Below, piece after piece: positions 3,001-53,301 of a stretch of 64,000 nucleotides of DNA. The notes beneath the pieces are model-generated. The model saw only the letters and a program-made list of their open reading frames with translations, was not told the origin of the DNA and made no database searches. Source of the DNA: Bacteroidota bacterium (GTDB lineage Bacteria; Bacteroidota; Bacteroidia; Bacteroidales; P3); NCBI GenBank assembly GCA_017860255.1, contig JAFNAR010000005.1, positions 1-64,000 of the forward strand. Reading direction: 5' to 3'. A program made the translations under genes and the position numbers. Position 1 is the first letter of the stretch. Every line of letters starts with the position of its first letter.

Positions 3001-4152
3001 ACCCATAGTACTGCAATTAATAGCATTAAAAAAAACTGTATCTAATGAAAAGCAATCTTGAAAAACTGAATTTCCAATTGAAGTAACAGAGCTTCCAATT
3101 ATTATTGAGTTTAAACCTCTACAATCTAAAAAAGCACTACTACCAATTGAAGTAACAGAGTTTGGAATTGAGATTGAGGTTAATCCACTACAATCTGAAA
3201 AAGCACTACTACCAATTGAAGTAACAGAGTTTGGAATTATGATTGAAGATAAACTATAACAATATCTAAAAGCATTATCTCCAATTGAAGTAACGGAGTT
3301 TGGAATTGTAATTGAAGTTAAACCATTACAACCAGAAAAAGCACCACTACCTATTGCAGTTACAGAATTTGGAATTGTCATTGAGGTTAATCCACTACAA
3401 CTTTGGAAAGTAAAATCATTAATAATAGTAACTGAATTTGGAATTGTAATAGAGATTAGTCCACTACAACTAGAAAAAGCAAAATCTCCAATCGAAGTAA
3501 CAGAATTTGGGATTGAGATTGAGGTTAATCCGCTACAATCTGAAAAAGCACTACTACCAATTGAAATAACAGAATTTGGAATCATTATAGAGCTTAAGCT
3601 AGTACAATTTTCAAAAGTTCTTACTTTAATTGAAGTTACTGAGTTTCCAATTGTAACAGAAGTTAATCCACTACAACCAGAAAAAGCGCTACTACCAATT
3701 TCAGTTACAGAATCTGGAATTGTGATTGATGCTAATCCAGTGCAATCATAAAAAGACTGATAACCAATTGAAGTAACAGAGTTCGGAATTGAGATTGAGG
3801 TTAATCCACTACAACCTTGAAAAGCATATTCTCCAATTGATGAAACATTATTAGGAATTGTTATTGAAGATAATGCAAAACAACCAGAAAAGGCACTAGT
3901 GCTAATTGAAGTAACTTTATAATATTTTCCATTATAAAGTACAGAATCAGGGAATGAAATACTACCATAATATTCATTAGAATAATCATAACTACTTCCT
4001 TGAAAAGTAACAGAAACCATTCTTGGAACAATTGGGGAGGTAATATTATAATAAATAGTTTTTCCATTATACACAGCAGAAAAGTCATGTGCTTGGGTGT
4101 TTATATTTATTGCAAATATTATTGCAAATAAAATTAATAATATTTTCTTCAT
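1..4152 (-). CDS. BspA-like leucine-rich-repeat surface protein (C-terminus beyond the window)
   Basis: The frame is open from an ATG at 4152 to the left edge (1,384 codons, no stop seen). A signal peptide ([18 protein letters not shown]) is followed by a short non-repeat region and then dozens of about 23-residue repeats of the form [23 protein letters not shown], the BspA/LRR_5 pattern. From roughly residue 1,230 the repeats give way to modules with [13 protein letters not shown] and AGLYTQ motifs, which are common in secreted Bacteroidetes proteins before a type IX secretion tail. The protein is probably exported and surface-attached, acting in adhesion or binding; this role is inferred from the family. 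Two internal segments are recent duplications (see findings). A -7 element at 4222-4229 supports the start. The C-terminal sorting tail, if present, is outside the window. Confidence 0.9.
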
Positions 4153-26842: not shown

Positions 26843-27271
26843 ATGGATATTTGGAGCAAAGAAAAAAGGTCGGAATGTATGTCAAAAATACCTTCTAAAA
26901 ATACAAAACCGGAGTTAATACTTCGTAAAGCACTTTTTTCAAGAGGATTCAGATATCGTGTAAATGACAGGCGATTACCAGGCAAGCCAGATATTGTTCT
27001 CCCTAAATATAAAACCATTATTTTTCTTCATGGCTGTTTTTGGCATAGACATGAAGGATGCAAATATGCATATACTCCAAAAACAAATACTCAATTCTGG
27101 ATTGATAAATTTAATTCAAATACAGAAAGAGACAAAATAAATGCTGAGAAGCTCACATCAATGGGGTGGAAAATCTTAACAGTCTGGGAGTGCGAAATAA
27201 GACATAAATACAAGCACGACATAGAATCCCTGATTGATAAAATTGAGGAAGCTTTGCTTGTAAACAGTTAG
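26843..27271 (+). CDS. vsr: Very short patch repair (Vsr) endonuclease
   Basis: The 142-residue enzyme belongs to the Vsr family, which nicks next to T in T:G mismatches left by deamination of 5-methylcytosine. Visible active-site parts are PGKPDIVLP with Asp50, HGCFWHRH (63-70, metal and zinc-type ligands) and the C-terminal GWKILTVWECEI. Vsr genes usually accompany C5-cytosine methylases, and one is present at the other end of this island (35026-36309). The gene faces the operon tail-to-tail with 67 bases between. No clear promoter was seen, so it may be read through from the upstream gene. Confidence 0.93.
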   Translation: MDIWSKEKRSECMSKIPSKNTKPELILRKALFSRGFRYRVNDRRLPGKPDIVLPKYKTIIFLHGCFWHRHEGCKYAYTPKTNTQFWIDKFNSNTERDKINAEKLTSMGWKILTVWECEIRHKYKHDIESLIDKIEEALLVNS

Positions 27272-27338
27272 AAAATGGTTGTTGAGTTATAAGATAAGTT
27301 TTTAAATAAAGTTTTGATAAAAAACAGCTTAATTGCAT

Positions 27339-29723
27339 TTATATATTAATACCAAAGCGTTTAAGTTTTTTTAAAGAATTATATGCACTAAGTAATGCCT
27401 GCTCTTTAAATAATTCATTTTTTATTAATGTAGCATAAACAGATTTTACATTTAACAATTCATTATTTTCAAAAATTTTTCTTTGTTCTGCTAATGCTAT
27501 CATTTTATCCCAATCATTTTTAGACAAGAGTGATAATTTGTCATATATTGGCTTGATCTCAATTGTCTCAGTTTCTTTTTTAGAAGATAAAGATTTAATT
27601 TCATCAATAATAGTTGGATTTTCAGAAAGATATTTAAGTGTTATCTTACCAATATATATATCTTTAACAGTTAAATTATTTTTATGTTCTAATTTATTAA
27701 TTATGTCAATGACAGTATAATAATCAAATTCTTTCAGATCTTTTTTCTTAATATAAATTCTAAAACCATCCCAAAATTTTAATCCTAATTTATATATTTC
27801 ACTAATTGCAAAAATTGTATTTTCTTTATTATTTGAATCTGTTTCCTTTTCATTCTCTCTGTCAACTCTTTCTTTTTCTGAAATCAGATGAACTTTTAAA
27901 ATTTCTGTTAAATCTTCCAGATATGATGTTGCTTGTAAATTCCTCCAAGAAGATTCGCGTTTTGCATATTCAGAAATCAATTGTCCACTTGCTTCTTTTT
28001 GTAAAAAATCGAAAACGAATGATATTAGTTTGCGTAATTGATCAATAATTATATCTGCTATCTTTTGATTGGTGTAGATTCCCCATAAATCTATACGATT
28101 CTGAGTTAAATGATGGAAATACGAAATTGTATAAGCAACAGTAAATGACTTAAGATTAGTGTCTCCAATGGCATTAACACCTTTTCTTCCAAATAACTTG
28201 TCTACTTGTTTGTATATAATCGCATTAGCAATAAGTTTTTTATAGAAATTTTCACCGGGTAATTTGTTTTTAGAAACTAATTCATTGATTTTTTTTGTGA
28301 ATTGTATGAAACTTTTTTGCGACCCTTGTGAAACATAATGCGGCTCTAAATCCCAAAGATTAATTAACTTTGCAATATCTGATTTAACAAATTTCAAATT
28401 CGATGGATTTTGTTCTTTGAATTTCTTCTGTTGTGATAGTGTTTGTTTATTTAGAGTTTCTCTGTATTGTCCGTTTGTCCGTTCAAAGAACCACAAATAT
28501 GACTGATTCTTATTTTCTGGATTAATTACATATTTCTTTCTTGATAAACTTTCAATTTTTATAAAATAAGGATTATTAGATGATAAATCTAATTCAGTAA
28601 CTTTGTTTTGACTGTTTGCATAACGGGAAATGTTAGGGACTTCTATATTTTTTTGCTCTTTATCTTTAATAACAGTAAGTTTCATTTGAACAAAAATTTT
28701 ACTCAAATCCACTTCTCTATACTTCTTTTGAGTATGATAAAGTGAAGCAGTTGTTTGTCCACCATTCACAATTTGAAAATCGTTCAGTTTAGTAATAAAA
28801 AGCTGATTGTTTATGATTTCTGTTTCAATTGTCTCAGCTGTTGCAGAAATACCATTATTATAAGGTAGGAACATTTGCGGTTTTTGGCGAATAGTATCTC
28901 TAATCCCTTTATTATACTTTCCTGTTTGTCCGAGAAATGCCCGTACATTGCTTTCCAAAAGTTCATTTGAATATTCTTTGTAAAGATTTGCTAAAATCTC
29001 ACCGGGAACTATAGCCAAATAACAATCATACATTTCATCTTCGATTGGCACTTTCAAACAATGCAAGCCGTTACTCTCATCTGAAAATTTACTGAAGTCA
29101 ATTTCTATAGTTTCATGAATACTGTTCGATTGGTTAATTTTAAAAAGGCGGGTAATGTCCCAAGTCTCAACCTGAACTTCTATGCCTGCAACATCAAATT
29201 TTTCTTTTTCGTGATTTGAAAAACCATTAAGTAAAAAAAATACTTTAATTCTGTCAAAATCTTGTGCCTGCTTTCCAATAATTTTCACAAGTTCATTTAA
29301 TTCTATCAGAGAATTATCAAGATAATCAATATGTCTTTTGAGAGAAGCATTAATAAAGCGTTTTATCTGATTTATAGCTTTTGTATAATCATCTTTTGGA
29401 ATTTTATAGTTGTATGCATCTTTCTGGTCTGTAACAAAATTAGTTATAAACAAATTCAGAGTTGAATAATATGTTTTACTGTTTTCTTCTTTAAATTGAT
29501 CCTGTAAACTGTAGCCATTTATCTTCCAGTCAATTCCACCCTGGCTGTTTGGATGTATGTACGACAAAACTCTTGCTCCTTCAGTCTTTCCTATTGATTC
29601 CAAAACTTCAATACAATATTCTGTAAATTTATCTTCAAAACTCACACCTTCTCCCTCAGAATAAACAAGGGATGCTACATCTGATTTAAGTTCTTCTATG
29701 TAATTCTGTAAAGCTCTTTCCAT
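27339..29723 (-). CDS. AIPR-family phage-resistance protein (last gene of the defence operon)
   Basis: The 794-residue protein matches the AIPR family (named for abortive-infection phage resistance). The central domain has LPYNNGISATAETIE (about 290), then DFQIVNGGQTTASLYH, SKIFVQMKLTVIKD and ANSQNKVTELDLSSNNPYFI. The NGGQT loop is the best family marker. The C-terminal half is helical and lysine-rich, with no recognised motif. AIPR proteins are typical members of MutL/Z1 restriction-like systems and are proposed to be effectors. The gene follows the PD-(D/E)XK gene by 2 bases, so translation is likely coupled. The AT-rich codon usage of the whole operon differs from its left neighbours. Confidence 0.9.
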   Translation of the reverse strand: MERALQNYIEELKSDVASLVYSEGEGVSFEDKFTEYCIEVLESIGKTEGARVLSYIHPNSQGGIDWKINGYSLQDQFKEENSKTYYSTLNLFITNFVTDQKDAYNYKIPKDDYTKAINQIKRFINASLKRHIDYLDNSLIELNELVKIIGKQAQDFDRIKVFFLLNGFSNHEKEKFDVAGIEVQVETWDITRLFKINQSNSIHETIEIDFSKFSDESNGLHCLKVPIEDEMYDCYLAIVPGEILANLYKEYSNELLESNVRAFLGQTGKYNKGIRDTIRQKPQMFLPYNNGISATAETIETEIINNQLFITKLNDFQIVNGGQTTASLYHTQKKYREVDLSKIFVQMKLTVIKDKEQKNIEVPNISRYANSQNKVTELDLSSNNPYFIKIESLSRKKYVINPENKNQSYLWFFERTNGQYRETLNKQTLSQQKKFKEQNPSNLKFVKSDIAKLINLWDLEPHYVSQGSQKSFIQFTKKINELVSKNKLPGENFYKKLIANAIIYKQVDKLFGRKGVNAIGDTNLKSFTVAYTISYFHHLTQNRIDLWGIYTNQKIADIIIDQLRKLISFVFDFLQKEASGQLISEYAKRESSWRNLQATSYLEDLTEILKVHLISEKERVDRENEKETDSNNKENTIFAISEIYKLGLKFWDGFRIYIKKKDLKEFDYYTVIDIINKLEHKNNLTVKDIYIGKITLKYLSENPTIIDEIKSLSSKKETETIEIKPIYDKLSLLSKNDWDKMIALAEQRKIFENNELLNVKSVYATLIKNELFKEQALLSAYNSLKKLKRFGINI

Positions 29724-29725
29724 AA

Positions 29726-30691
29726 TTATAATTTTGTGAATAATTCTTCAAAGTTTATTTTATATTTTTCAACAGCAGATAGTTCAATTGAATATTTTAC
29801 ATCATAAATACTTAATGGTAATTGATTTTTAATAATCTTGGGAAATTCTTCGCTTATCTCAAAAACTAATGTATTTTTTAATGAGTACTTAGTATTGTAT
29901 TGAGACTTGTCATCTTCCATATAACCAATTAATGTCAGGTTTTCATTAAAAAGATTGAGTTCATCTTGATTTGTGATTTTCTTTCTAATTTGTTGTATAA
30001 GTGAATTTAGAGAAAAACCGTTTTCTTTGACTTCTTCCGCTGTGAATAATAATAAAAATAGTTCATTCAGATTTTTTGAGTCTAATTGTCTTTCACTTGA
30101 AATTGTAATTTTTGGATTTTTAGAGGAAGTAAATTTTATTTCAATCCCAATACCACCAAATGTAAAATCTTTGTCCTTATAATCGCTACCTGTCCAAGCA
30201 TTAAGAATTGAAGTAGAAGTTTTTTCATGTTCAAGCAGGTAATTAAAAAACAGCAGTTCTCCAATAAGGCCTTTTTGCTGTTCTCTGTTCAATCCATTGA
30301 AATTGATTTTATCAAACAGTTTTTTCCATTTTGAAATTATATTTAGTGTTGTAATTACAGCTTCATTTTCTGTAATACTTTTCTCAACATCTTCCAGAAT
30401 ATTTTGAATAAACAGTGAAAAAATATCTTTTAACTCATTATCTAACAGATAAATGTTCAGTTCAATGTTGTTTTCATTTTCAATAGTAAAAATTTCAACG
30501 CCTTTGAAACGATAATTTTTCAACTCTGGAATGGCAACATCATTTGAAACAGACATAATATACAGATACAGTCCTGTTATATTATTAGTTGCAGCAAAAC
30601 AGTTCAAATGCTTTATTCCATCAATTCTGGTCTTGATAATTATATCACCTGAAGTTTTCAGACTATCCCAAATAGTTTTAATGTTTATCAT
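29726..30691 (-). CDS. PD-(D/E)XK motif protein (DUF4420-like nuclease)
   Basis: The 321-residue protein has a nuclease-type core: GLIGELLFFNYLL (141-153), then SDYKDKDFTFGG with Asp175, and IGIEIKFTSS with Glu184 and Lys186. This is a D-(x)8-ExK arrangement typical of restriction endonuclease folds. The acidic GELLFF helix fits the family that Pfam calls DUF4420/PD-(D/E)XK. In this type of island it is the most likely DNA-cleaving subunit; this is inferred from the motif and the neighbours. It is separated by 2 bases from each neighbour, which fits a fixed-ratio complex. No helix-turn-helix was visible. Confidence 0.88.
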   Translation of the reverse strand: MINIKTIWDSLKTSGDIIIKTRIDGIKHLNCFAATNNITGLYLYIMSVSNDVAIPELKNYRFKGVEIFTIENENNIELNIYLLDNELKDIFSLFIQNILEDVEKSITENEAVITTLNIISKWKKLFDKINFNGLNREQQKGLIGELLFFNYLLEHEKTSTSILNAWTGSDYKDKDFTFGGIGIEIKFTSSKNPKITISSERQLDSKNLNELFLLLFTAEEVKENGFSLNSLIQQIRKKITNQDELNLFNENLTLIGYMEDDKSQYNTKYSLKNTLVFEISEEFPKIIKNQLPLSIYDVKYSIELSAVEKYKINFEELFTKL

Positions 30692-30693
30692 AA

Positions 30694-33576
30694 TTAATCA
30701 TTTTCAATATCATCATCTAACATTAAGTCCTGTTCAAGGTTGGGATTTATTGCAGCAGTGTATGAAACTTCTTCTTCATCTTTAAGCGTAGGAAAATGTA
30801 AACTGTATCCCACAATAGGCAAATTGTTACTTACATTTTGTGTTCCTCTTTCATCCAAAGCATATATTAAAAGAAGTCCTTTTTTTTCTTTTGCTCGCTG
30901 TTCTTTGATTTCAGCATATTTTAATTCAGAATAATTTTTACTGTTATCTAAATCTACATATCTGTCACCAGCCTGATCAATCTGATTTTTTGAAATCAAA
31001 TAAAATTCCCCATTTCTGCCAATTTGCTGATTACGTACACTGCAACCCATCAATATTTTTTTACCATTGAACTCCAATTCATAAGTTGCAACATTTTCAT
31101 TGGGTTTTCTTTCAGTTCGAGGAGTATTTCCATTATAATCTATATAAACCTTTTCATCAGTGTTGGAAACAATACATATAGCCCACTCAGAAATATTTTG
31201 ATTTTTTGCCTGTTCTTTAATGTAATAACTTATTGTTGCATGTTGTATACTTGGTTGATCAATCTTATAACTGTCCAGAAATTCGCAAAGCACATTGATA
31301 TCAACATTTTTGAATATTATTTTTTGAATTTTGTCATTCAATTTTATAATGTTTTTATCTTCAAAACCTATTCTGTTTACAAGGTATTTCAGTGCATTGA
31401 AATTGTTTTGTATAGCTTCTTTTGTTTTTAATAACAAGTATGTTTGTGGATTCCAGCCAGACAAGGAAACAAAAAATTGCTCTGTGAAATGCATTTTAAC
31501 AACACTTGTTATTGTTAACAGTCCGTGATGATTGCGAACTTTCAAACGAAAATCCTTTGGCCTCTGATGTGAAAAGGTCATTTCGTCAAAGTCGTTACGC
31601 ATTTCTTCAGTTGCCATAGTAATATGGTTAAACCATTCAAAAATCTGGTTAGTAGTGTAAAGTCTGCATAAATCAACATAGCCTGGGCGATATCCAAACC
31701 AGCGTCCCATTTGCATAAGGGAATCATACATTTTAGTTGATCTTATGTAATAAGAAATTGATAATCCTTCAAGAGTAATTCCTCTTGACAGTCTGCTGCC
31801 ACCCACAGCAATTACAGATAAACCATTTTCGTATTGTTTGAAGTCAATTTCTTCTATGTTGTGGTAATCCAGATTTGTAGTTGAACGGGTACCATGAACT
31901 GCACGAACTTCAATTTTTGATGAGGCTTTTTTAAGTTCTGCTTTTACATCTTTCCAAGTATGTTCTTTTATTCTAATGTCAGTATAATCTATATTTTCTA
32001 AAATATTTTTAGTTGTTGGCAGAAAATCTCTTTCATACAATGTTTTTAATTCATTTAATAATGTTTTATCGTCACCTTGAATTGCACTGTTGTATTCCTT
32101 CATTTTATCACTTACAAGTTTAGCAACTTTGTCAATCCAACGTACAAGCAATGCTACGTGTACAAGCATTGAATTGTGTTTGTTTTCCTGCCCTCTGATT
32201 CTACGAATTGCACAAGTTAGAATAAAGGATTTTATTGCTTTTTCTAAACTTTCTGGGATATGGTCAGGTAATGTGTCTTTATTATCTTTATTAATAGTTT
32301 TAAAAAAAGGGGGATCATAATCTCCTGTGTAAATCGGATTATTTTCATTGTCATAACCAACGAATCTGTCAATTGGTCTGAAAATATCTAACGGTTCTTT
32401 AGTAAGTTCTGGATTTTTTTTATTTTCATAACCGAAAATTGTTGCTGCCCCTATATAATTTGTTGGCGCTTTTAAATTGATAATAAAATCTCTTGGAAAT
32501 AAATCTTCACCTATTTTATATTGTTTGTCTTTAATAATAGTAGTAAGTTCTTCATTAAAATCCTGTGGTATAAACAGATTTGCATATGGAGTTGCAGTAT
32601 AACCGATAAATGTATTTTGATCAAAAAGATTTAATAATGTACGAATCAAACGGTTGATAGTTTTAATTTCGTTTATGTCTGCTGTAGAATTTACGGATGC
32701 TGAATCTGCTTCATCGTCAATAATCAATGCAGGAATATCAAATAATTTAGGCGTATTATCAATGTGTTTTACATTAACATCTTTTGAAAACCAGTCAATC
32801 AAGTTTTCGAGAATACTTTTATTCTTTTTAATTACAAAGACTGCCGGATTTTTTCCTATTGGTATGTTCAACCTGTTGGCAATAGCTTGATTAAAATCGC
32901 CTTCATCTCCATTTTTGTAGAATGCAGAAGTAAGCGAATAAATATCTGTATTAATGTTATAATTTCCTACACCAACGATTTTATTTGTTTTTTTTTGAAT
33001 AAATGCAGAACTGTTTCTGCCAATGTAACCATAATCAATACGTTCCTGTGTCTGCCTGCGTAATGAACTTATTGTTCCTGCAATGATGATAATTACTTTG
33101 TAACCAGCATCAGTAGCTTTGTTGATCAGTCCAATATAATTTGAAGTTTTTCCAGATTGAACATGTCCTACAACCATTCCACGTCTATCCCATGAACCTT
33201 TTTTTACTGGATTAACACACTTGTCTAATATTTTGTCTGTAAAATCATCTAACTCATTTATTGGAAACGAAGGGTCTTCTTTAGACATGTACAATTTGTA
33301 TCTGTTCCAGAGTTCAAAGTTAATATTTGCTTTTTCTTCATTAAGCCACGGTAATACATTGTCCGAAAGAATAGAAATTTCACCTTTTCCTACACTATAA
33401 TCCGCCATTAAAATTTCAAACAGAGAATCTTTATCAAAGGTTTGTCCTTCAATAATATTTATTGCCATAGCTTTTTCTATTGCTTTTGAAATTAATTCAG
33501 GTGTTATTTTTGTTCTATCATATTGTGAAAGCAAAATATGACAAATTCCTCTTGCATTATTAATTATATCTGTCAT
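30694..33576 (-). CDS. Z1-domain superfamily-2 helicase-like protein
   Basis: The 960-residue protein is a full-length Z1 family member. ATPase and helicase motifs can be read in order: Walker A GHVQSGKT (137-144), DDEAD (287-291), GYTATP (325-330), GGSRLSRGITLEG (592-604) and QMGRWFGYR (622-630). The core is therefore a DEAD-like superfamily-2 ATPase. The C-terminal 300 residues have no motif I recognise. Z1 proteins are thought to be the motor of MutL/MORC-associated restriction systems. The start overlaps the end of the ATPase gene by 4 bases (ATGA), a sign of translational coupling. Confidence 0.93.
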   Translation of the reverse strand: MTDIINNARGICHILLSQYDRTKITPELISKAIEKAMAINIIEGQTFDKDSLFEILMADYSVGKGEISILSDNVLPWLNEEKANINFELWNRYKLYMSKEDPSFPINELDDFTDKILDKCVNPVKKGSWDRRGMVVGHVQSGKTSNYIGLINKATDAGYKVIIIIAGTISSLRRQTQERIDYGYIGRNSSAFIQKKTNKIVGVGNYNINTDIYSLTSAFYKNGDEGDFNQAIANRLNIPIGKNPAVFVIKKNKSILENLIDWFSKDVNVKHIDNTPKLFDIPALIIDDEADSASVNSTADINEIKTINRLIRTLLNLFDQNTFIGYTATPYANLFIPQDFNEELTTIIKDKQYKIGEDLFPRDFIINLKAPTNYIGAATIFGYENKKNPELTKEPLDIFRPIDRFVGYDNENNPIYTGDYDPPFFKTINKDNKDTLPDHIPESLEKAIKSFILTCAIRRIRGQENKHNSMLVHVALLVRWIDKVAKLVSDKMKEYNSAIQGDDKTLLNELKTLYERDFLPTTKNILENIDYTDIRIKEHTWKDVKAELKKASSKIEVRAVHGTRSTTNLDYHNIEEIDFKQYENGLSVIAVGGSRLSRGITLEGLSISYYIRSTKMYDSLMQMGRWFGYRPGYVDLCRLYTTNQIFEWFNHITMATEEMRNDFDEMTFSHQRPKDFRLKVRNHHGLLTITSVVKMHFTEQFFVSLSGWNPQTYLLLKTKEAIQNNFNALKYLVNRIGFEDKNIIKLNDKIQKIIFKNVDINVLCEFLDSYKIDQPSIQHATISYYIKEQAKNQNISEWAICIVSNTDEKVYIDYNGNTPRTERKPNENVATYELEFNGKKILMGCSVRNQQIGRNGEFYLISKNQIDQAGDRYVDLDNSKNYSELKYAEIKEQRAKEKKGLLLIYALDERGTQNVSNNLPIVGYSLHFPTLKDEEEVSYTAAINPNLEQDLMLDDDIEND

Positions 33577-35024
33577 TTTAAATATTCATTTATTAATGGA
33601 AACATATTGAAAGGCATGGAACTCATAATTTGCTGTTTTGCCAAATTCTCTGGGACTCCCTGCGATACATTTATTCTGTATATCTCTACTGCTAATTCAA
33701 TTAGTTCATCGCTTGGTATTTCAATTTGTTTTTCTAATTCGTGATATGCAGGGTCTTCGTTTTGATTACTCAATATTAATTCGATTGGGACATTATTTTC
33801 TAATAATTTAAATGCCTTTAATGCTAATTTGTTATTCTCAGATATTAAGGCACTAATAACTGGATGTTTCCTATTGATTTTATATTTTTTCAGACCTTCT
33901 CTTGTGACTTCATCTGTCCACAATGGCTGAAAGCTTGGATTGAGATTTGTTGAACTTGTTTTTTGTCCACGCCAGTTATAACGTTTAGCTGATTTTTTAA
34001 TAGCAATGTCTGCAATTCGAGTAAGTTCTCTGCGTATTTCTATAGGAGGTGTTGCAGTAGATTTTTTTATGTCAAGCTGCCAGTTAAAATCGTTTTCGTT
34101 TGAAAAATTTATTGCAATTCTTGCAAGCTTTGAATAATCTCTTTTCTTCTCTATTCCCAGCCAGTCACCTGCAACAAGTAATCTGTCACCACGATAAACA
34201 TAAAATCCCTGTTGTTGAAACCATCCAAGTGAACCTCCAGATTTTTCATATTCAACTTTTCCAATTTCTGACATGTGAGGAAGTATAAAATAAGTTATTT
34301 CAACATTTTCAAATTTTTCAGTAATTCCCATTTCCGGTTTTGGGTCAAGATTTAGCAGAAAAGGATTATAATACTCTATCACTTCATTTTGAAAATATAT
34401 AGTTATTTTTTTACTTTCAATAAATTTGTGGAAAACCAGACTCAAATGTTCTTTTACATTCATCATTTCCTGATAGAAAACATTTCTTACACTTACGTTA
34501 TCGATTTCAGCGTTACCAACAATTCTATCAAGCTTTTCCCATAAAACCAAAGTGCCTGATTTTTCAATTTTATCAAGAAAACTTTCGTCAGAAATTGAAT
34601 CTAATAAACGCCATTCATTTTCTTTATTAACAAAATCTATATCCCAGCATCTCTTAATGATTTCATAATCTTTACGTTTTGTGACACAAGTTAAACGTTT
34701 GCATTGTGAAAATGAAGCAGCTTTCAATCCCATTCCAAAACGGCCTAAATCATTCAAATCTCTTTCTTCCTCTGGATCTTTGCTTCCTGGGGTCATAGCC
34801 ATAACAAGTTCATTAAGATTCATGCCAATACCATTATCTAAAATTGAGATGTATGAATCCTTGCCAAGCCACTTATATTCAATTGAGACTTCTTTTGCTT
34901 TTGCAGAAATACTGTTATCAATAATATCAGCAATAGCTGTAGATAGATTATAACCAAAACTTCTATATGAATTGATTGTAGATTTAGGGTTTGGAGTTGC
35001 AATTTCTGCTCTGTTGTATTCCAT
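33573..35024 (-). CDS. GHKL ATPase of the MutL/MORC/Hsp90 type
   Basis: The 483-residue protein has the N-terminal Bergerat ATP-binding fold: ADIIDNSISAKA (33-44, the N-box with Asn), DNGIGMNL (63-70) and GRFGMGLKAASFSQC (94-108). A transducer-like middle region with WQLDIKKSTATPP follows, where the lysine may contact ATP. It lacks gyrase or histidine-kinase partner domains. Proteins of this kind, described as MutL/MORC-like, occur with Z1 and AIPR genes in restriction-modification islands. An ATP-driven clamp or loader that responds to foreign or unmodified DNA is a plausible role. It lies 1 base after the methylase stop codon. Confidence 0.92.
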   Translation of the reverse strand: MEYNRAEIATPNPKSTINSYRSFGYNLSTAIADIIDNSISAKAKEVSIEYKWLGKDSYISILDNGIGMNLNELVMAMTPGSKDPEEERDLNDLGRFGMGLKAASFSQCKRLTCVTKRKDYEIIKRCWDIDFVNKENEWRLLDSISDESFLDKIEKSGTLVLWEKLDRIVGNAEIDNVSVRNVFYQEMMNVKEHLSLVFHKFIESKKITIYFQNEVIEYYNPFLLNLDPKPEMGITEKFENVEITYFILPHMSEIGKVEYEKSGGSLGWFQQQGFYVYRGDRLLVAGDWLGIEKKRDYSKLARIAINFSNENDFNWQLDIKKSTATPPIEIRRELTRIADIAIKKSAKRYNWRGQKTSSTNLNPSFQPLWTDEVTREGLKKYKINRKHPVISALISENNKLALKAFKLLENNVPIELILSNQNEDPAYHELEKQIEIPSDELIELAVEIYRINVSQGVPENLAKQQIMSSMPFNMFPLINEYLK

Positions 35025-35025
35025 A

Positions 35026-36309
35026 TTAAAACTGTTTTTTTATCTGCTTGGCAATATTATATGCTAAAAGTACTGGTACAGCATTTCCTATTTGTTTAAA
35101 AGCAGAACTTCTGCTTCCTTCAAAATAATAATCATCAGGGAATGATTGTAATCGTGCGGCTTCTCGTATTGTTATTGAACGAACATTTTCAATAGTTGGA
35201 TTTTTTGTGGGATAAATGTAATAATGTCCATCCATAGCTATATGAGCTACAACTGTATGAGAACAGCCATCATAATCAACAACTTGAAATCGATTTTGAA
35301 ATGTTTCTTTATTTTTTTGTGTTTGTAATCTTTCAGGTAGTTCTTTATAATTCAATCTTTTTTTTCCATTATACCATTTTTCGACTGCAATTTTATAAAT
35401 CTCACGATCAATTTCATTGTTAGGCCTTGCAATATGTTGGGTGGTGAAATTAAAATCACTTTTTCTTATATCATAGTTTTCCAGATAATTCATTTTTGAA
35501 AGTGGTTTTGCATATTTTACTGGAGCACACAATTCCCCTTCGCCACTCTTACGTACAGGCAAATCAATAAACAAATCTTCAAGGACTTTGTAATTATTAT
35601 TGATTTTTTCTAATTCTGGATATTTAAAAGATGTTGGCTTGTCCTTGATCTCTTTTTTCCAGCCAACTATTATTACTCTGCGTCTATGCTGTAAAACTCC
35701 ATAATCTGATGCAAGCTGAACTTTTAATTCAATTTCATAACCAATTTCATTTGTCAGTTTTTTTAGATCTTTTAAAGGTTCTCCTTTTTTAGCTGTAAGA
35801 ATTCCTAATACATTTTCAAAAACAAACATCTTAGGATGATATCTTTCTAAAAATTTCACATAAAATTTGTAAAGTTCATTACGGGGATCTTCCTTAACTG
35901 CATCTCCCATTCTGGCTCTTCCCACAATTGAATATGCCTGACATGGAGGGCCACCGACAATTAAATCAATTTTATTTTTTCCTTTCAAAGAATCAACTCT
36001 TTTAAAAATTTCATCAATTGTTTCTACTTTTATTTCTGAGTTTATTACTGAGTCAATTACTGATTTTGGAACCTGATCCCAAAGTTTACTTCCATCTTCT
36101 TTTTCCTTTTTATTATAAAGATAGTCTTTGTAAATATTCAGTTTTCCATTTTCTTTTAGCCAGTGAAAAGCAGCACGAGTTTTTAAAGTATCACACGCAT
36201 ATTTATTCATTTCAATATGAGCTAATGGATTAAAACCTGCTCTTATAAAACCTTCTGATAAGCCACCTGCACCTGCAAATAAATCAATAAAATTTAATTT
36301 ATTATTCAT
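35026..36309 (-). CDS. C5-cytosine DNA methyltransferase
   Basis: The 427-residue enzyme transfers a methyl group from SAM to C5 of cytosine at a specific site, marking self DNA. Motifs in order: I, FIDLFAGAGGLSEGF (7-21); IV, GGPPCQAYSI with catalytic Cys123; VI, the ENVLGIL segment; VIII, QHRRRVIIVG; a target-recognition region of about 150 residues; IX, TIREAARLQSFPDDY; and X, GNAVPVLLAYNIAKQI. It is intact. It is the first gene of the defence operon, so modification is made before the other parts, a sensible order for a restriction system. The target site cannot be read from sequence. Confidence 0.95.
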   Translation of the reverse strand: MNNKLNFIDLFAGAGGLSEGFIRAGFNPLAHIEMNKYACDTLKTRAAFHWLKENGKLNIYKDYLYNKKEKEDGSKLWDQVPKSVIDSVINSEIKVETIDEIFKRVDSLKGKNKIDLIVGGPPCQAYSIVGRARMGDAVKEDPRNELYKFYVKFLERYHPKMFVFENVLGILTAKKGEPLKDLKKLTNEIGYEIELKVQLASDYGVLQHRRRVIIVGWKKEIKDKPTSFKYPELEKINNNYKVLEDLFIDLPVRKSGEGELCAPVKYAKPLSKMNYLENYDIRKSDFNFTTQHIARPNNEIDREIYKIAVEKWYNGKKRLNYKELPERLQTQKNKETFQNRFQVVDYDGCSHTVVAHIAMDGHYYIYPTKNPTIENVRSITIREAARLQSFPDDYYFEGSRSSAFKQIGNAVPVLLAYNIAKQIKKQF

Positions 36310-48980: not shown

Positions 48981-49706
48981 TTATTTACTCTTATGTACTG
49001 TAAGTTTAAAACCTACACCATGTTGATTTGCTAATTTAACTTCTGGATCATGCACTAAATATTTTCTAATCTTAGTGATGTAAACGTCCATGCTTCTTGC
49101 ATTAAAGTAAGAATTGTTTTTCCATACCTTTTGAAGTATAACTGTTCTGTCAACAGTTTGATTCATACTTAAACAGAAAATATTTAAAAGTTCACTTTCT
49201 TTACCAGTTAAACGAATGTCTTCTGGTTGATTTTTGTCATTTCCTTTAAATGAAAGTAGATGACGGTTGAAATCGAAAGTGTAAAAATTTCCTATTTCAA
49301 AGATATTGTCTTCTGGACGAGTGCCAATTGAACGACGAGCTATTGCGCTAATTCTGCAAAGTACTTCTTCCATCGAGAAAGGTTTGCATACATAATCGTC
49401 TGCTCCAAGTTCAAAACCTCTAATTATATCTTCTGTTTCTTTATGTTTGTCAGAAACAAACATAATTGGGATTGTTGGGTCTAAATCTCTGATCTTGTCT
49501 GCTACATCAAAACCATCAGTTAAGTCTAAGGATGTTTCCAGAATCACAAAATCAATTTCCTCAGAAGAATAAGCTTTAATTGCTGCTTGTCCATCGGTTA
49601 CTAATCTTACGTTAAACTCATTCTTTTCAAGAAAGGTTTTTACTATTGGTCCAAGGTTCAAATCCCCTTCTGCCAATAGGATTGTTAATTTTCTCATTTT
49701 ACTCAT
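48981..49706 (-). CDS. OmpR-family response regulator with Glu in place of the phospho-Asp
   Basis: The 241-residue protein has a receiver domain (about 6-122) and a winged-helix DNA-binding domain (about 135-238: DIRLTGKESELLNIFCL, KVWKNNSYFNARSMDVYITK). The receiver keeps Asp15, the serine in MFVSD (for Thr/Ser) and Lys in DDYVCKPF, but the phospho-acceptor position reads VILETSL with Glu57 where LLD is expected. It is close to the RprY type of Bacteroides. A Glu there often mimics phosphorylation, so the protein may be constitutively active. No histidine kinase is adjacent; it lies 34 bases after the signal peptidase gene. Confidence 0.88.
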   Translation of the reverse strand: MSKMRKLTILLAEGDLNLGPIVKTFLEKNEFNVRLVTDGQAAIKAYSSEEIDFVILETSLDLTDGFDVADKIRDLDPTIPIMFVSDKHKETEDIIRGFELGADDYVCKPFSMEEVLCRISAIARRSIGTRPEDNIFEIGNFYTFDFNRHLLSFKGNDKNQPEDIRLTGKESELLNIFCLSMNQTVDRTVILQKVWKNNSYFNARSMDVYITKIRKYLVHDPEVKLANQHGVGFKLTVHKSK

Positions 49707-49740
49707 TTTTTTTCAATGTTTGTTTGTTTATTATGCTTTT

Positions 49741-51465
49741 TTAATCTACGAGTCTAAATAATTTACTCCACCTAATCTTATTAAACCATTTTTTATCTTT
49801 ATTTAGACTTAACCATACAAATGAGGCTTTACCTACAATATGGTCTTCTGGAACAAATCCCCAAAATCTACTATCTGCTGAATTATGTCTATTGTCACCC
49901 ATCATCCAATAGTAATCCATTTTAAATGTATATGTTTTGGTTTCTTTCCCATTAATAAATACTTTACCTCCTTTTTGTTCCAATGTATTCTTTTCAAATG
50001 CAGTTATTGCTCTTTTGTATAAAGAAATATTTTTAGAGGTAAGTGTAACAGTCATTCCTTTCTTAGGAATTAAAACAGGTCCATAATTGTCAACATTCCA
50101 ATCCAAACTTTCTTCATAAGGGAATAGATTTTTTTCTTTATAGCCTTTAATGCTTATAACAGGTGTTATGGATTTTACATAAGGGAATTTCTTAATTTTT
50201 TGAATTAATTCATTTGAAAGAGGTAGTGTTGGGTAATTAATTGCACTACTAATTTCATTGCTGTCAACTCCAACCATTTTCAATGCCTGTGCTTTGTCCA
50301 CTAATTCAGGGTGGAAAATAATCTTACAAGGCAGTTTATTGAAAGCTGAATAGGATTTTCCTTTGCTGTTTAATGGTTGAACATCTAAAACATAAGGTGT
50401 AATTGAAAGGTTTTCAATTTGTGGTTTTGTCAAATTAATATAGTAGGAGAGATACATCATATCCATATCTTCCTTAGAAACTCCAATATTTAGCAATTCT
50501 TTTTCATTTAAAGAAGCTCCATTTTCTGTTTCTATTTTATATGTTATTTGATAATCTTTTGGACTTTCAATAGGTTTTCCATTAATATGTACAATTCTAT
50601 TTTCTATTGAAACTGTTTCACCAGGAAGTCCAATACAACGTTTGATGAAATTTTCTCTTTTATCAACAGGTCGAGTTATAATTTGTCCAAATTCTTGTGG
50701 AGAATTCCAAACTCTATCCATGCCATATTTTCTAACTAAGCTATAATAACTATCTGCACTTTGATAGGCAGTTGAAAGAGTATCTCCATCTGGGAAATTA
50801 AACACAACTGCATCATTTCTCTTAACTTTGCCAAGCCCTGGGAAACGATGATAATCCAAATTTATCCATTCAACGTATGACTTGATGTTTAAAAGAGGAA
50901 TTGTGTGGTGAACCAAAGGAAATGCAATAGGTGTGTTCGGAACTCTCGGTCCATAAGCAACCTTACTTACAAATAGATAGTCTCCAACAAGTAGAGATTT
51001 TTCCATTGAGGATGTGGGAATGGTGTAGGCTTCAAAGCCAAACATTCTAATAACTGATGCTGCAATTATTGCAAATAAAATAGCATCTGCCCATTCTCTA
51101 ACTGATGAATTTTTAATTTTTGGTAATTCAGAAGGGTGGGTGTAGTTTTCTTTCTTTGAAAATCCAAGCCAAGGCAAGATAACAAAAGGAAATAAAACTC
51201 CTGCAATCTGAATTAAAAGTCCATTTTTGCGGAAGCACTTCATTATTTCTATAATGATTAGCATCGCAACAAATATATTTATAAAAGGAATTAGACAATA
51301 AATAAACCACCAAAACTTTTTATTTATAATTTTTACAGCATACCAAACGTTAAGAATAGGAATTATGCTATACCAACCTTTAATTCCTGCTTTAATAAAT
51401 ACTTCCCAAAGCCCGATAACGGTAAGAATAGTAGTAATAATGATGATAATTGCGTATATACTCAT
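49741..51465 (-). CDS. lepB: Long signal peptidase I with an N-terminal DUF5684-like membrane domain
   Basis: The protein has 574 residues from the ATG at 51465, which is preferred because an upstream start at 51543 would precede the promoter. The N-terminus (about 1-115) has four membrane segments with [18 protein letters not shown] and [14 protein letters not shown], like DUF5684. The S26 peptidase domain follows: [21 protein letters not shown] (catalytic Ser), the [15 protein letters not shown] segment (catalytic Lys) and [19 protein letters not shown] near the end. About 200 extra residues lie between the GLPGE and MGDNR blocks, longer than in E. coli LepB. It removes signal peptides of exported proteins at the inner membrane. 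Confidence 0.92.
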
Positions 51466-51485
51466 TGATTTATTAATTAAATTAC

Positions 51486-51493
51486 TAATTTTG
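51486..51493 (+). promoter_or_regulatory. -7 element of the C-terminal protease gene
   Basis: TAATTTTG lies 42 bases before the ATG at 51535; the start would be near 51500. The transcript would overlap the leader of the lepB transcript. Confidence 0.55.
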
Positions 51494-51516
51494 CAATTCA
51501 AATTACAAAACGTTTG

Positions 51517-51524
51517 CAAAAATA
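51517..51524 (-). promoter_or_regulatory. -7 element of lepB
   Basis: The minus strand reads TATTTTTG; transcription would begin near 51510, to the right of the divergent start at 51500. A CAAA (-33 TTTG) lies at 51539-51542. Confidence 0.5.
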
Positions 51525-51534
51525 ATATTATTGT

Positions 51535-53301
51535 ATGAAACAAACAATTTTTTCTTTATTTTTTATAATTTCGATTTTCGTAAATGCACAAAGCATTGAT
51601 AGAAACGAGCTTCTGGCAACTGACAATAAAATGTCATTTACATTAAATATGATTAGATATTACTATGCGGAAAAACCCGATATGAAAAAAATTGTGGAAA
51701 AGGGTATAGTAAATATGCTAAAAGAATTGGATCCACATTCCGTTTATATTTCGAAAGAAGATGTGGACAAAATGAATGAACCTTTGGTTGGAAACTTCGA
51801 TGGAGTTGGTGTTTCATTCCAAATTTTGAAAGACACAATTTATGTTGTGGATGTTATTAGAGGTGGTCCTTCTGAAAAGGTGGGTATGTTGCCAGGAGAT
51901 AAAATAATTAAGGTTGATGATAATATTGCAACTGGTGACACAATCAAAACTGATTGGGTTTTTAAACATCTTAGAGGAGTTAAAGGAACTAAGGTTAAAG
52001 TAACCGTTGAAAGAAAAGGAAGAAAAGAACCAATAGTATTTGATATTATTAGAGATAAGATACCAATCACAAGTGTTGACACATGGTTTATGCTTGATAA
52101 AACTCTTGGTTATATCCGTTTGGATAGATTTGCTCAAAACTCACAGGAAGAAGTCGTTAATGCCATAAAAGATTTGAAAAGCAAAGGAATGAAAGAACTA
52201 ATCTTTGACCTTAGAGGAAATGGAGGGGGATATCTTGATGTTGCTTTCAAATTGGGTGATGAGTTTTTGGATGATGAAAAACTAATAGTTTATACAGAAG
52301 GAGTTTCTTCACCACGATATGATTTCAAAAGCCAGTCAAAAGGGGAATTTGAAAAAGGAAAACTTATAATATTAATTGATGAATCATCTGCCTCTGCAAG
52401 TGAAATTGTAACTGGTGCCATTCAAGATTGGGATAGAGGAGTGGTTATTGGAAGAAGAAGTTTTGGAAAGGGATTGGTTCAAAGACCTTTCAATTTGCCT
52501 GATGGTTCTCAAATACGTTTAACTACTTCACGTTACTTTACACCAAGTGGTCGTTGTATTCAAAAACCATGGGATGATGGATTAGACTCCTACTATAACG
52601 ACTATATGAAACGCTATCAACACAAAGAATTAATAACTCCTGATTCAATTAAATTTCCTGATTCACTAAAATATTCAACTTCAAATGGAAGAGTTGTTTA
52701 TGGTGGAGGAGGAATTATGCCAGACGTGTTTGTCCCAATTGACACTTCAAGAGCATCAGACTATTTAATAAATCTTCGTTCAAAAGGAATTTTCAATGAC
52801 TTCACAATGCAATGGGTAGATGATCACAGAACTGAATTTTTAAAACAAAATCCAAGCTTTGATGACTTTAACAAAGCATATCCTTCATTAAATTTAATGA
52901 AAGAATTTACTGCCTATGCACAAAAAGAAGGAGTGGAACATAATGAAATTAAAAAAGAATGGGTTAATCAAATGGTTGGTGAATATCTTTTTGAACAAGT
53001 GAAAGACACAACCAAACCAAACTATACATCTTATCAAATTTATGCAAATGAACTTTTAAATAATCCTGAGTTATTAAAAACAATTGTAGAGAAAGCACAA
53101 AATGAAGATAAGAAAATGGCAGAGATGATGAAAAAGTCAGATGTTTATATCGAGGCTACTCTAAAAGCAATGATAGCAAGAAACCTTTATGGAGTTAATT
53201 ATTACTATCAATCAATAAAAGACACTGATGAAGGCTTACAAAAAGCTATTTCAATAATTAAAGACGATAAGGTTTATAATAATCTATTGAAGAAAAAATA
53301 A
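51535..53301 (+). CDS. S41-family C-terminal processing peptidase (Ctp/Tsp)
   Basis: The 588-residue protease has a signal peptide (to about NAQ, residue 19), a PDZ domain (about 85-165: [20 protein letters not shown]) and the S41 catalytic core: [27 protein letters not shown] with the nucleophile Ser, and [11 protein letters not shown] with the Lys partner. The last 200 residues are helical, as in longer Bacteroidetes members. Ctp proteases cut periplasmic proteins near their C-termini. The gene is divergent from the signal peptidase gene, so two protein-processing genes share a control region. Confidence 0.93.

Follow-up and report, generated by a model that had tools for sequence, protein, structure and literature searches.

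Here we describe an RprY-like response regulator of the OmpR/PhoB type that is best read as a kinase-free, phosphorylation-independent transcription factor. Its receiver is an aspartate-less pseudo-receiver, and the RprX-like kinase is gone from its lineage; we give this reading a probability of roughly 0.6. The gene lies in what we call the window, the whole 64,000-nucleotide stretch of DNA from a Bacteroidota genome that was analysed. Two members of the canonical two-component receiver set (acceptor Asp, the DD pair, T/S and Lys) are missing from its product, Asp57 and Asp14, and the presence of Glu57 and Gly14 places it among both the aspartate-less receivers (ALRs, defined by the lack of an acceptor Asp) and the pseudo-receivers (in which one or more of the five active-site residues are missing).

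The gene is a minus-strand open reading frame that starts at ATG, with the extent that the initial annotation had given it (Table 1). It belongs to the OmpR/PhoB type by virtue of its receiver and C-terminal winged helix, which are found by Pfam and in the AlphaFold2 model, and the named Foldseek matches are regulators of the same type. The best NCBIfam model is RprY (NF051850) at 237 bits, with the runner-up 103 bits lower at 134; because this best score is still below the equivalog cut-off (>370 bits), of which the canonical genus-mate G021 also falls short (284 bits), we use the name RprY-like. In the AlphaFold2 model the (beta-alpha)5 receiver fold is kept (mean pLDDT 89.7). Full-length Foldseek TM-scores are low (TMq 0.37–0.50), which we read as a difference in domain orientation since receiver-only targets exceed TMt 0.9.

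Table 1. Coordinates of the RprY-like gene, its receiver features and its upstream neighbour in the window.
Feature	Position	Strand	Basis or comment
RprY-like response regulator with pseudo-receiver, 241 aa	48981..49706	(-)	ORF and translation, Pfam, NCBIfam, lepB synteny
Receiver domain PF00072 (Response_reg), residues 9-118	49353..49682	(-)	Pfam above cut-off
Winged-helix DNA-binding domain PF00486 (Trans_reg_C), residues 162-235	49002..49223	(-)	Pfam above cut-off
Codon 14 GGG, Gly; metal-binding Asp in 106/106 canonical orthologues	49665..49667	(-)	Alignment
Codon 57 GAA, Glu at phospho-acceptor position	49536..49538	(-)	Alignment to canonical orthologues
Codon 86 (T+1), Asp; Ala in 106/106 canonical orthologues	49449..49451	(-)	Altered in 16/16 degenerate orthologues
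One-residue insertion, beta4-alpha4 loop, residue 91	49434..49436	(-)	Alignment
Codon 108 AAA, conserved active-site Lys, kept	49383..49385	(-)	Lys in 122/122 orthologues
lepB-rprY gap, 34 bp	49707..49740	(-)	lepB directly upstream, same strand
lepB, signal peptidase I, N-terminal DUF5684 region	49741..51543	(-)	Peptidase_S26 and DUF5684 matches

The position behind lepB is as initially annotated; the two genes lie on the same strand, and we infer that they are co-transcribed; the lepB reading frame as listed begins at TTG, and a later start is likely. The same arrangement, with lepB directly upstream of rprY on the same strand, was found in all 17 further loci examined in the genera g1 (to which the window genome belongs), g4 and g12. 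With the window included, lepB–rprY is thus seen in 18 of 18 loci, which places the gene in the rprY orthologous group, and the g1 sequences group together in the rprY tree (support 96/88). In some relatives the intergenic gap reaches about 100 bp, leaving room for a separate rprY promoter. Gaps of about 90 bp in G055, G049, G067 and G071 (L063, L064, L065 and L066) hold a common near-palindromic element, CATTGAACGCCACAAT, with flanks, which reads CATTGATCGCCACAAT in G071; it is possibly an operator or promoter region. Elsewhere in the window, positions 26843–36309 form a defence-type island with a Vsr endonuclease, AIPR, a DUF4420 PD-(D/E)XK protein, a Z1 domain, HATPase_c_3 and a C-5 cytosine methylase, across which PADLOC models for Vsr, MzaE, MzaD, MzaC, MzaB and DrmMII are matched in order.

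For the orthologue survey we took one protein from every genome in the family sample with a match at E <= 1e-30, which gave 122 proteins from 149 genomes. Additional copies in G020, G034, G040 and G078 were excluded; the two of these four that were read (G020 C80 and G034 C25) have the equivalents of Asp14 and Asp57. Glu13, Asp14 and Asp57 are all present in 106 orthologues (hereafter canonical), and the remaining 16 are degenerate, comprising ten of the 11 g1 genomes, all four g12 genomes with a match and two of the three g4 genomes with a match. Position 57 of the degenerate proteins is Glu in 12, Asn in one and Asp in three; at position 14, all but one of the 16 have Gly, Ser, Pro, Asn or Thr. 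Both residues are lost in twelve, only the one at 14 in three (G031, G012, G003) and only the one at 57 in G046, the partial states being Gly14 with Asp57, Ser14 with Asp57 and, in G046, Asp14 with Asn57; G031 also lacks the T/S residue (codon GCT, Ala85). A clean order of loss, metal ligand first and acceptor second, is not established by these mixed partial states, among which the Asp57 of G031 may be a reversal on the species tree. The G003 and G012 genes (L076, L079) keep Asp57, have lost the metal ligand and have a changed Ala86, on rprY-tree branches of 1.71 and 1.17, and likely encode pseudo-receivers that a screen for missing Asp overlooks. Among 80 named loci from public genomes (the best 80 of 589 confirmed), mostly from uncultured Bacteroidales and other Bacteroidota, only L120–L122, which correspond to g1 members, are degenerate. 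In the 12 genomes of genus g5 and in G026, both an rprY orthologue (E <= 1e-30) and an RprX-like kinase are missing, so this family can do without the entire system.

The central claim of the initial annotation, Glu at the phospho-acceptor position, is borne out by alignment without gaps to the acceptor Asp of solved OmpR/PhoB regulators and to the 106 canonical orthologues, every one of which has Asp there. With no gap near residue 57 in either comparison, and no Asp one or two residues away, misalignment of the acceptor is ruled out; sequencing or assembly error and chance are likewise rejected, as Glu57 recurs in 12 orthologues from 12 separate genomes. The conserved Lys that had been pointed out is universal among the orthologues, and Ser85 (T/S) is also present. 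The description of the receiver as otherwise well formed does not hold: position 14 is Gly, Met59, Met60 and Ala86 are altered, Pro61 is lost and the beta4-alpha4 loop has an insertion. Met59, Met60 and Ala86 are invariant or nearly so in the 106 canonical proteins and altered in all 16 degenerate ones, including those that keep Asp57. The loop insertion occurs in all ten degenerate g1 orthologues, in none of the 106 canonical ones and in none of the six degenerate ones of g12 and g4.

In the eight core degenerate proteins, Glu114, Arg118 and Arg125 of alpha5 and Asp103 and Asp104 of beta5 are kept throughout, residues that we take to correspond to the dimer face of PhoB. Near-invariant columns retained in all eight number 26 of 49 in the receiver and 29 of 37 in the DNA-binding domain, and the DNA-recognition segment in g1 is almost the same as in the canonical majority. 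Position 94 is Ile in all eight, where the canonical proteins have Lys (82), Arg (20) or Val (4); the Lys or Arg is presumably one partner of a dimer-face salt bridge, as in PhoB. Cys117, in alpha5, is found in all eight compared with two of 106 canonical proteins, and is absent from G031, G010, g12 and g4; Cys107 occurs in four of the eight. The window genome (G000) has 14 receiver matches, and the window protein is one of three without the acceptor Asp. The two others (contig 61, ~50491-50817, L045; contig 28, ~3056-3388, L047) are parts of 909- and 889-residue open frames with HisKA matches, have Ser and Ala at the acceptor and Met and Leu in place of the active-site Lys, and are, judged by sequence, further pseudo-receivers.

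A histidine kinase gene lies directly upstream of canonical rprY in most of the loci read from genera g7, g9, g10 and g11; no NCBIfam model names this kinase, and we therefore call it RprX-like from its position. (Across L060–L199, a set of 140 loci, a kinase motif was matched in 76, some of these being other kinases of the window's genome.) Counted at E <= 1e-45, plus the split gene of G021, which is in two pieces at two contig ends, RprX-like carriers make up 110 of the 149 genomes searched; five genomes without a kinase match were identified by subtraction. The kinase is present in 102 of the 106 genomes with canonical rprY compared with none of the 16 with degenerate rprY (Fisher p 1.2e-16, calculated without regard to relatedness). 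The canonical genomes that lack it are four drafts, 75–84% complete (G044, G051, G129, G148), and completeness is at least 94% in 13 of the 16 degenerate genomes. A profile of ten kinase rows searched against 30 genomes scored RprX-like genes at 272–687 bits and all else at 167 bits or below, and by this search the RprX-like gene is absent from all 16 degenerate genomes. In the window genome, which is 99.19% complete, the cognate kinase was not found, the best profile match (166.7 bits) being a generic HisKA/HATPase protein. None of this genome's 12 HisKA matches lies on the window's contig, in agreement with the initial annotation's observation that no kinase gene is adjacent. Its further suggestion, a regulator freed from two-component control, is now well supported, as the RprX-like kinase is missing genome-wide and the pocket has lost more than its acceptor.

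The place from which the kinase gene is missing can be read directly. In G021 (g1) and in G015 and G036 (g4), the rprX locus has the order M14 peptidase–rprX–orf278–waaA, the last gene being one that we take to be waaA. In 15 of the 16 degenerate genomes the M14 peptidase directly abuts orf278, with about 20 bp or less between them where the start is callable, and in the sixteenth, G043, neither peptidase nor kinase lies beside orf278. The empty peptidase–orf278 arrangement was also found in G026, G004, G016 and G027, all of which are without rprY and the kinase.

The pseudo-receiver is under purifying selection. By the Nei-Gojobori method, dN/dS of the receiver is 0.03–0.13 in nine of ten close degenerate pairs and 0.24 in the tenth, and that of the DNA-binding domain is 0.02–0.10 in nine, one pair being saturated. 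The medians for canonical receivers are 0.012 (9 pairs at dS 0.2–0.5) and 0.067 (149 pairs at dS 0.5–1.0), so at short distance degenerate receivers may be under somewhat relaxed selection. Four synonymous codons, GGG, GGA, GGT and GGC, encode Gly14 among G000, G059, G063 and G041, and none of the 16 degenerate rprY genes has an internal stop codon.

How might such a protein work? We propose that it would not undergo normal Asp phosphorylation, and that Glu57 together with Lys108, Ser85, Glu13 and Asp15 may form a direct, Mg-free network like that of CmrT. This network would hold the receiver in, or bias it toward, a dimer-competent state, giving by analogy with CmrT a constitutive or strongly pre-activated dimer, which would then bind RprY-type sites constitutively. 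Output would be set mainly by the amount of protein, probably made from the lepB transcript. It is on this analogy that we infer constitutive, or 'locked active', behaviour for the window protein. Several observations weigh against the proposal: the dimer-face Lys/Arg94 is Ile in all eight core proteins; a phosphomimetic pocket could be upset by the additional acidic residue at 86; Pro61 is lost; the same pocket in relatives ends with Asp57 (G031, G012, G003) or Asn57 (G046), so that Glu is one outcome among several; and the gap of about 100 bp in some relatives is enough for a separate promoter. In CmrT, moreover, E53A alone had little effect (PMC12548384, in excerpt), so Glu57 may be one of several contributors rather than a proven lock.

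A rival reading, which we consider less likely, is a protein that is independent of phosphorylation yet not constitutive, its pseudo-receiver sensing something else, such as a ligand, a partner, acetylation or redox, and its Glu57 being only structural. Cys117, fixed in the core proteins, could have a redox role; RitR has been reported as a redox sensor that evolved from a response regulator (PMC5965902, in excerpt), the kinase-less RprY of Porphyromonas gingivalis is controlled by acetylation (PMC6032018, in excerpt), and purifying selection on the pseudo-receiver argues for a role beyond tethering. However, the window shows no evident link between the gene and a ligand, partner or modifying enzyme, and both cysteines are unevenly distributed, Cys107 reaching only half of the core proteins and Cys117 none of G031, G010, g12 and g4. 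Selection also bears on whether the regulator is instead decaying, its receiver drifting after kinase loss and the protein on its way out, as in the relatives without both genes. The accelerated rprY branches (g1 stem 0.45, g12 stem 1.0 and G003 1.71, compared with 0.10 for canonical G021) and the joint absence of rprY and kinase from the twelve g5 genomes and G026 are what decay would predict, but receiver dN/dS of 0.03–0.24, a Gly14 preserved through synonymous change, uninterrupted frames and the near-invariant columns kept in both domains make it very improbable. We think just as little of continued two-component control, in which another kinase or acetyl phosphate would phosphorylate Glu57 or a neighbouring residue: phosphorylation of Glu is chemically possible (PMC4395418, in excerpt) and the window genome does have 12 HisKA matches, but phosphotransfer is disfavoured by the loss of the metal ligand Asp14 and by the acid at T+1, a position that in canonical receivers is kept small to allow access (PMC12632262, in excerpt).

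The kinase-free reading of the protein is compatible with more than one history of the kinase. In the species tree, built from three proteins (UvrD, RuvB, UvrC) in 30 genomes, and in the rprY tree, g1 and g4 are separate groups, each with a canonical, RprX-bearing member. Receiver state is concordant in all three independent pairs that differ in kinase presence (sign test p 0.25, a test that cannot reach significance with only three pairs). Unordered parsimony needs three changes for RprX (a single loss plus two regains), less than if the gene could only be lost. It would thus allow one loss at the base of g1, g4, g12 and g5, after which G021 and G015/G036 regained rprX and an intact rprY, and the tie between kinase loss and receiver decay would then reflect one event. 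Synteny disfavours this: rprX occupies the same locus in G021 as in G015/G036, although their peptidases share just 41% identity, and in these genomes rprY follows lepB and is placed by the rprY tree inside the respective genus. Regaining the gene twice, each time at the matching locus, is unlikely, and we judge a single loss improbable; the shared rprX synteny favours repeated loss. Within g1, the species tree places canonical G021 inside the degenerate rows (support 94/96). One degeneration event in that genus is nevertheless likely, since a tree with the ten degenerate g1 rows together is not rejected (p-AU 0.182), the rprY tree unites them (with long-branch warnings, on a stem of 0.45 compared with an end branch of 0.10 for G021) and they have the loop insertion in common. 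Tentatively, and at somewhat less than even odds, we suggest that in three or more lineages of this one family the loss of rprX made a kinase-free transcription factor out of the same syntenic regulator, altering the same pocket sites (14, 57, 59, 60, 86) each time, with Glu57 arising independently in at least two (g1, g12), and that fresh purifying selection followed, making this a convergent, selected conversion and not decay.

Pseudo-receivers as a class are already known; what sets this member apart is that a single syntenic gene shows graded states tying kinase loss to receiver decay. A search of titles and the opening parts of abstracts, with most subscription journals outside its reach, found no report of RprY pseudo-receivers or of such a kinase-loss series. 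A 2025 review, in the excerpts available, calls the activation and inactivation of bacterial pseudo-receivers a mystery and functional convergence among them not clear (PMC12632262). The family offers matched comparisons of one orthologue at one locus, in genomes that have the kinase and in genomes that lack it, partial states included. With these, a few proteins should be enough to test directly how a phospho-switch becomes a stand-alone factor.

By published surveys, seen in excerpt, about 4% of receivers are ALRs. The acceptor is most often replaced by Glu (26%); of the two acids it is usually the second that is lost, whereas the first, like the Lys, mostly remains (PMC4395418, PMC12632262). 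The window protein is like this class in having Glu at the acceptor, no second acid, and the first acid and Lys retained. According to the same excerpts, D-to-E substitution can imitate phosphorylation, yet by itself it often does not suffice, and for some pseudo-receivers it has been shown not to be what makes them active (PMC4395418, PMC12632262). The closest likeness in pattern is to CmrT of Clostridioides difficile, an aspartate-less OmpR-family regulator, and extends to the replaced DD pair (DGD in CmrT, EGD in the window protein), an acceptor Glu (Glu53 in CmrT), the kept T/S and Lys and the lost Pro at D+4 (PMC12548384, in excerpt), and the CmrT receiver structure (PDB 2QZJ) was matched by sequence at 9.5e-12 (2qzj_A). 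The structure of that receiver is read as showing direct, Mg-free hydrogen-bond contacts, and CmrT dimerises without its kinase (PMC12548384, in excerpt). CmrT differs in that its gene is accompanied by those of a kinase and of a canonical partner regulator, whereas the window gene has no adjacent kinase and is of the RprY line; the function of CmrT has been tested. RprY, with RprX, of Bacteroides fragilis represents the same regulator line, as judged by the best NCBIfam model. The RprY of P. gingivalis is likewise an orphan that has lost RprX, but can still be phosphorylated in vitro (PMC6032018, in excerpt), whereas the window protein has neither acceptor nor metal ligand. The system described here differs from the known pseudo-receivers ChxR, HP1043, RitR and AtvR in that sister species still display the canonical state, the kinase gene and the empty locus.
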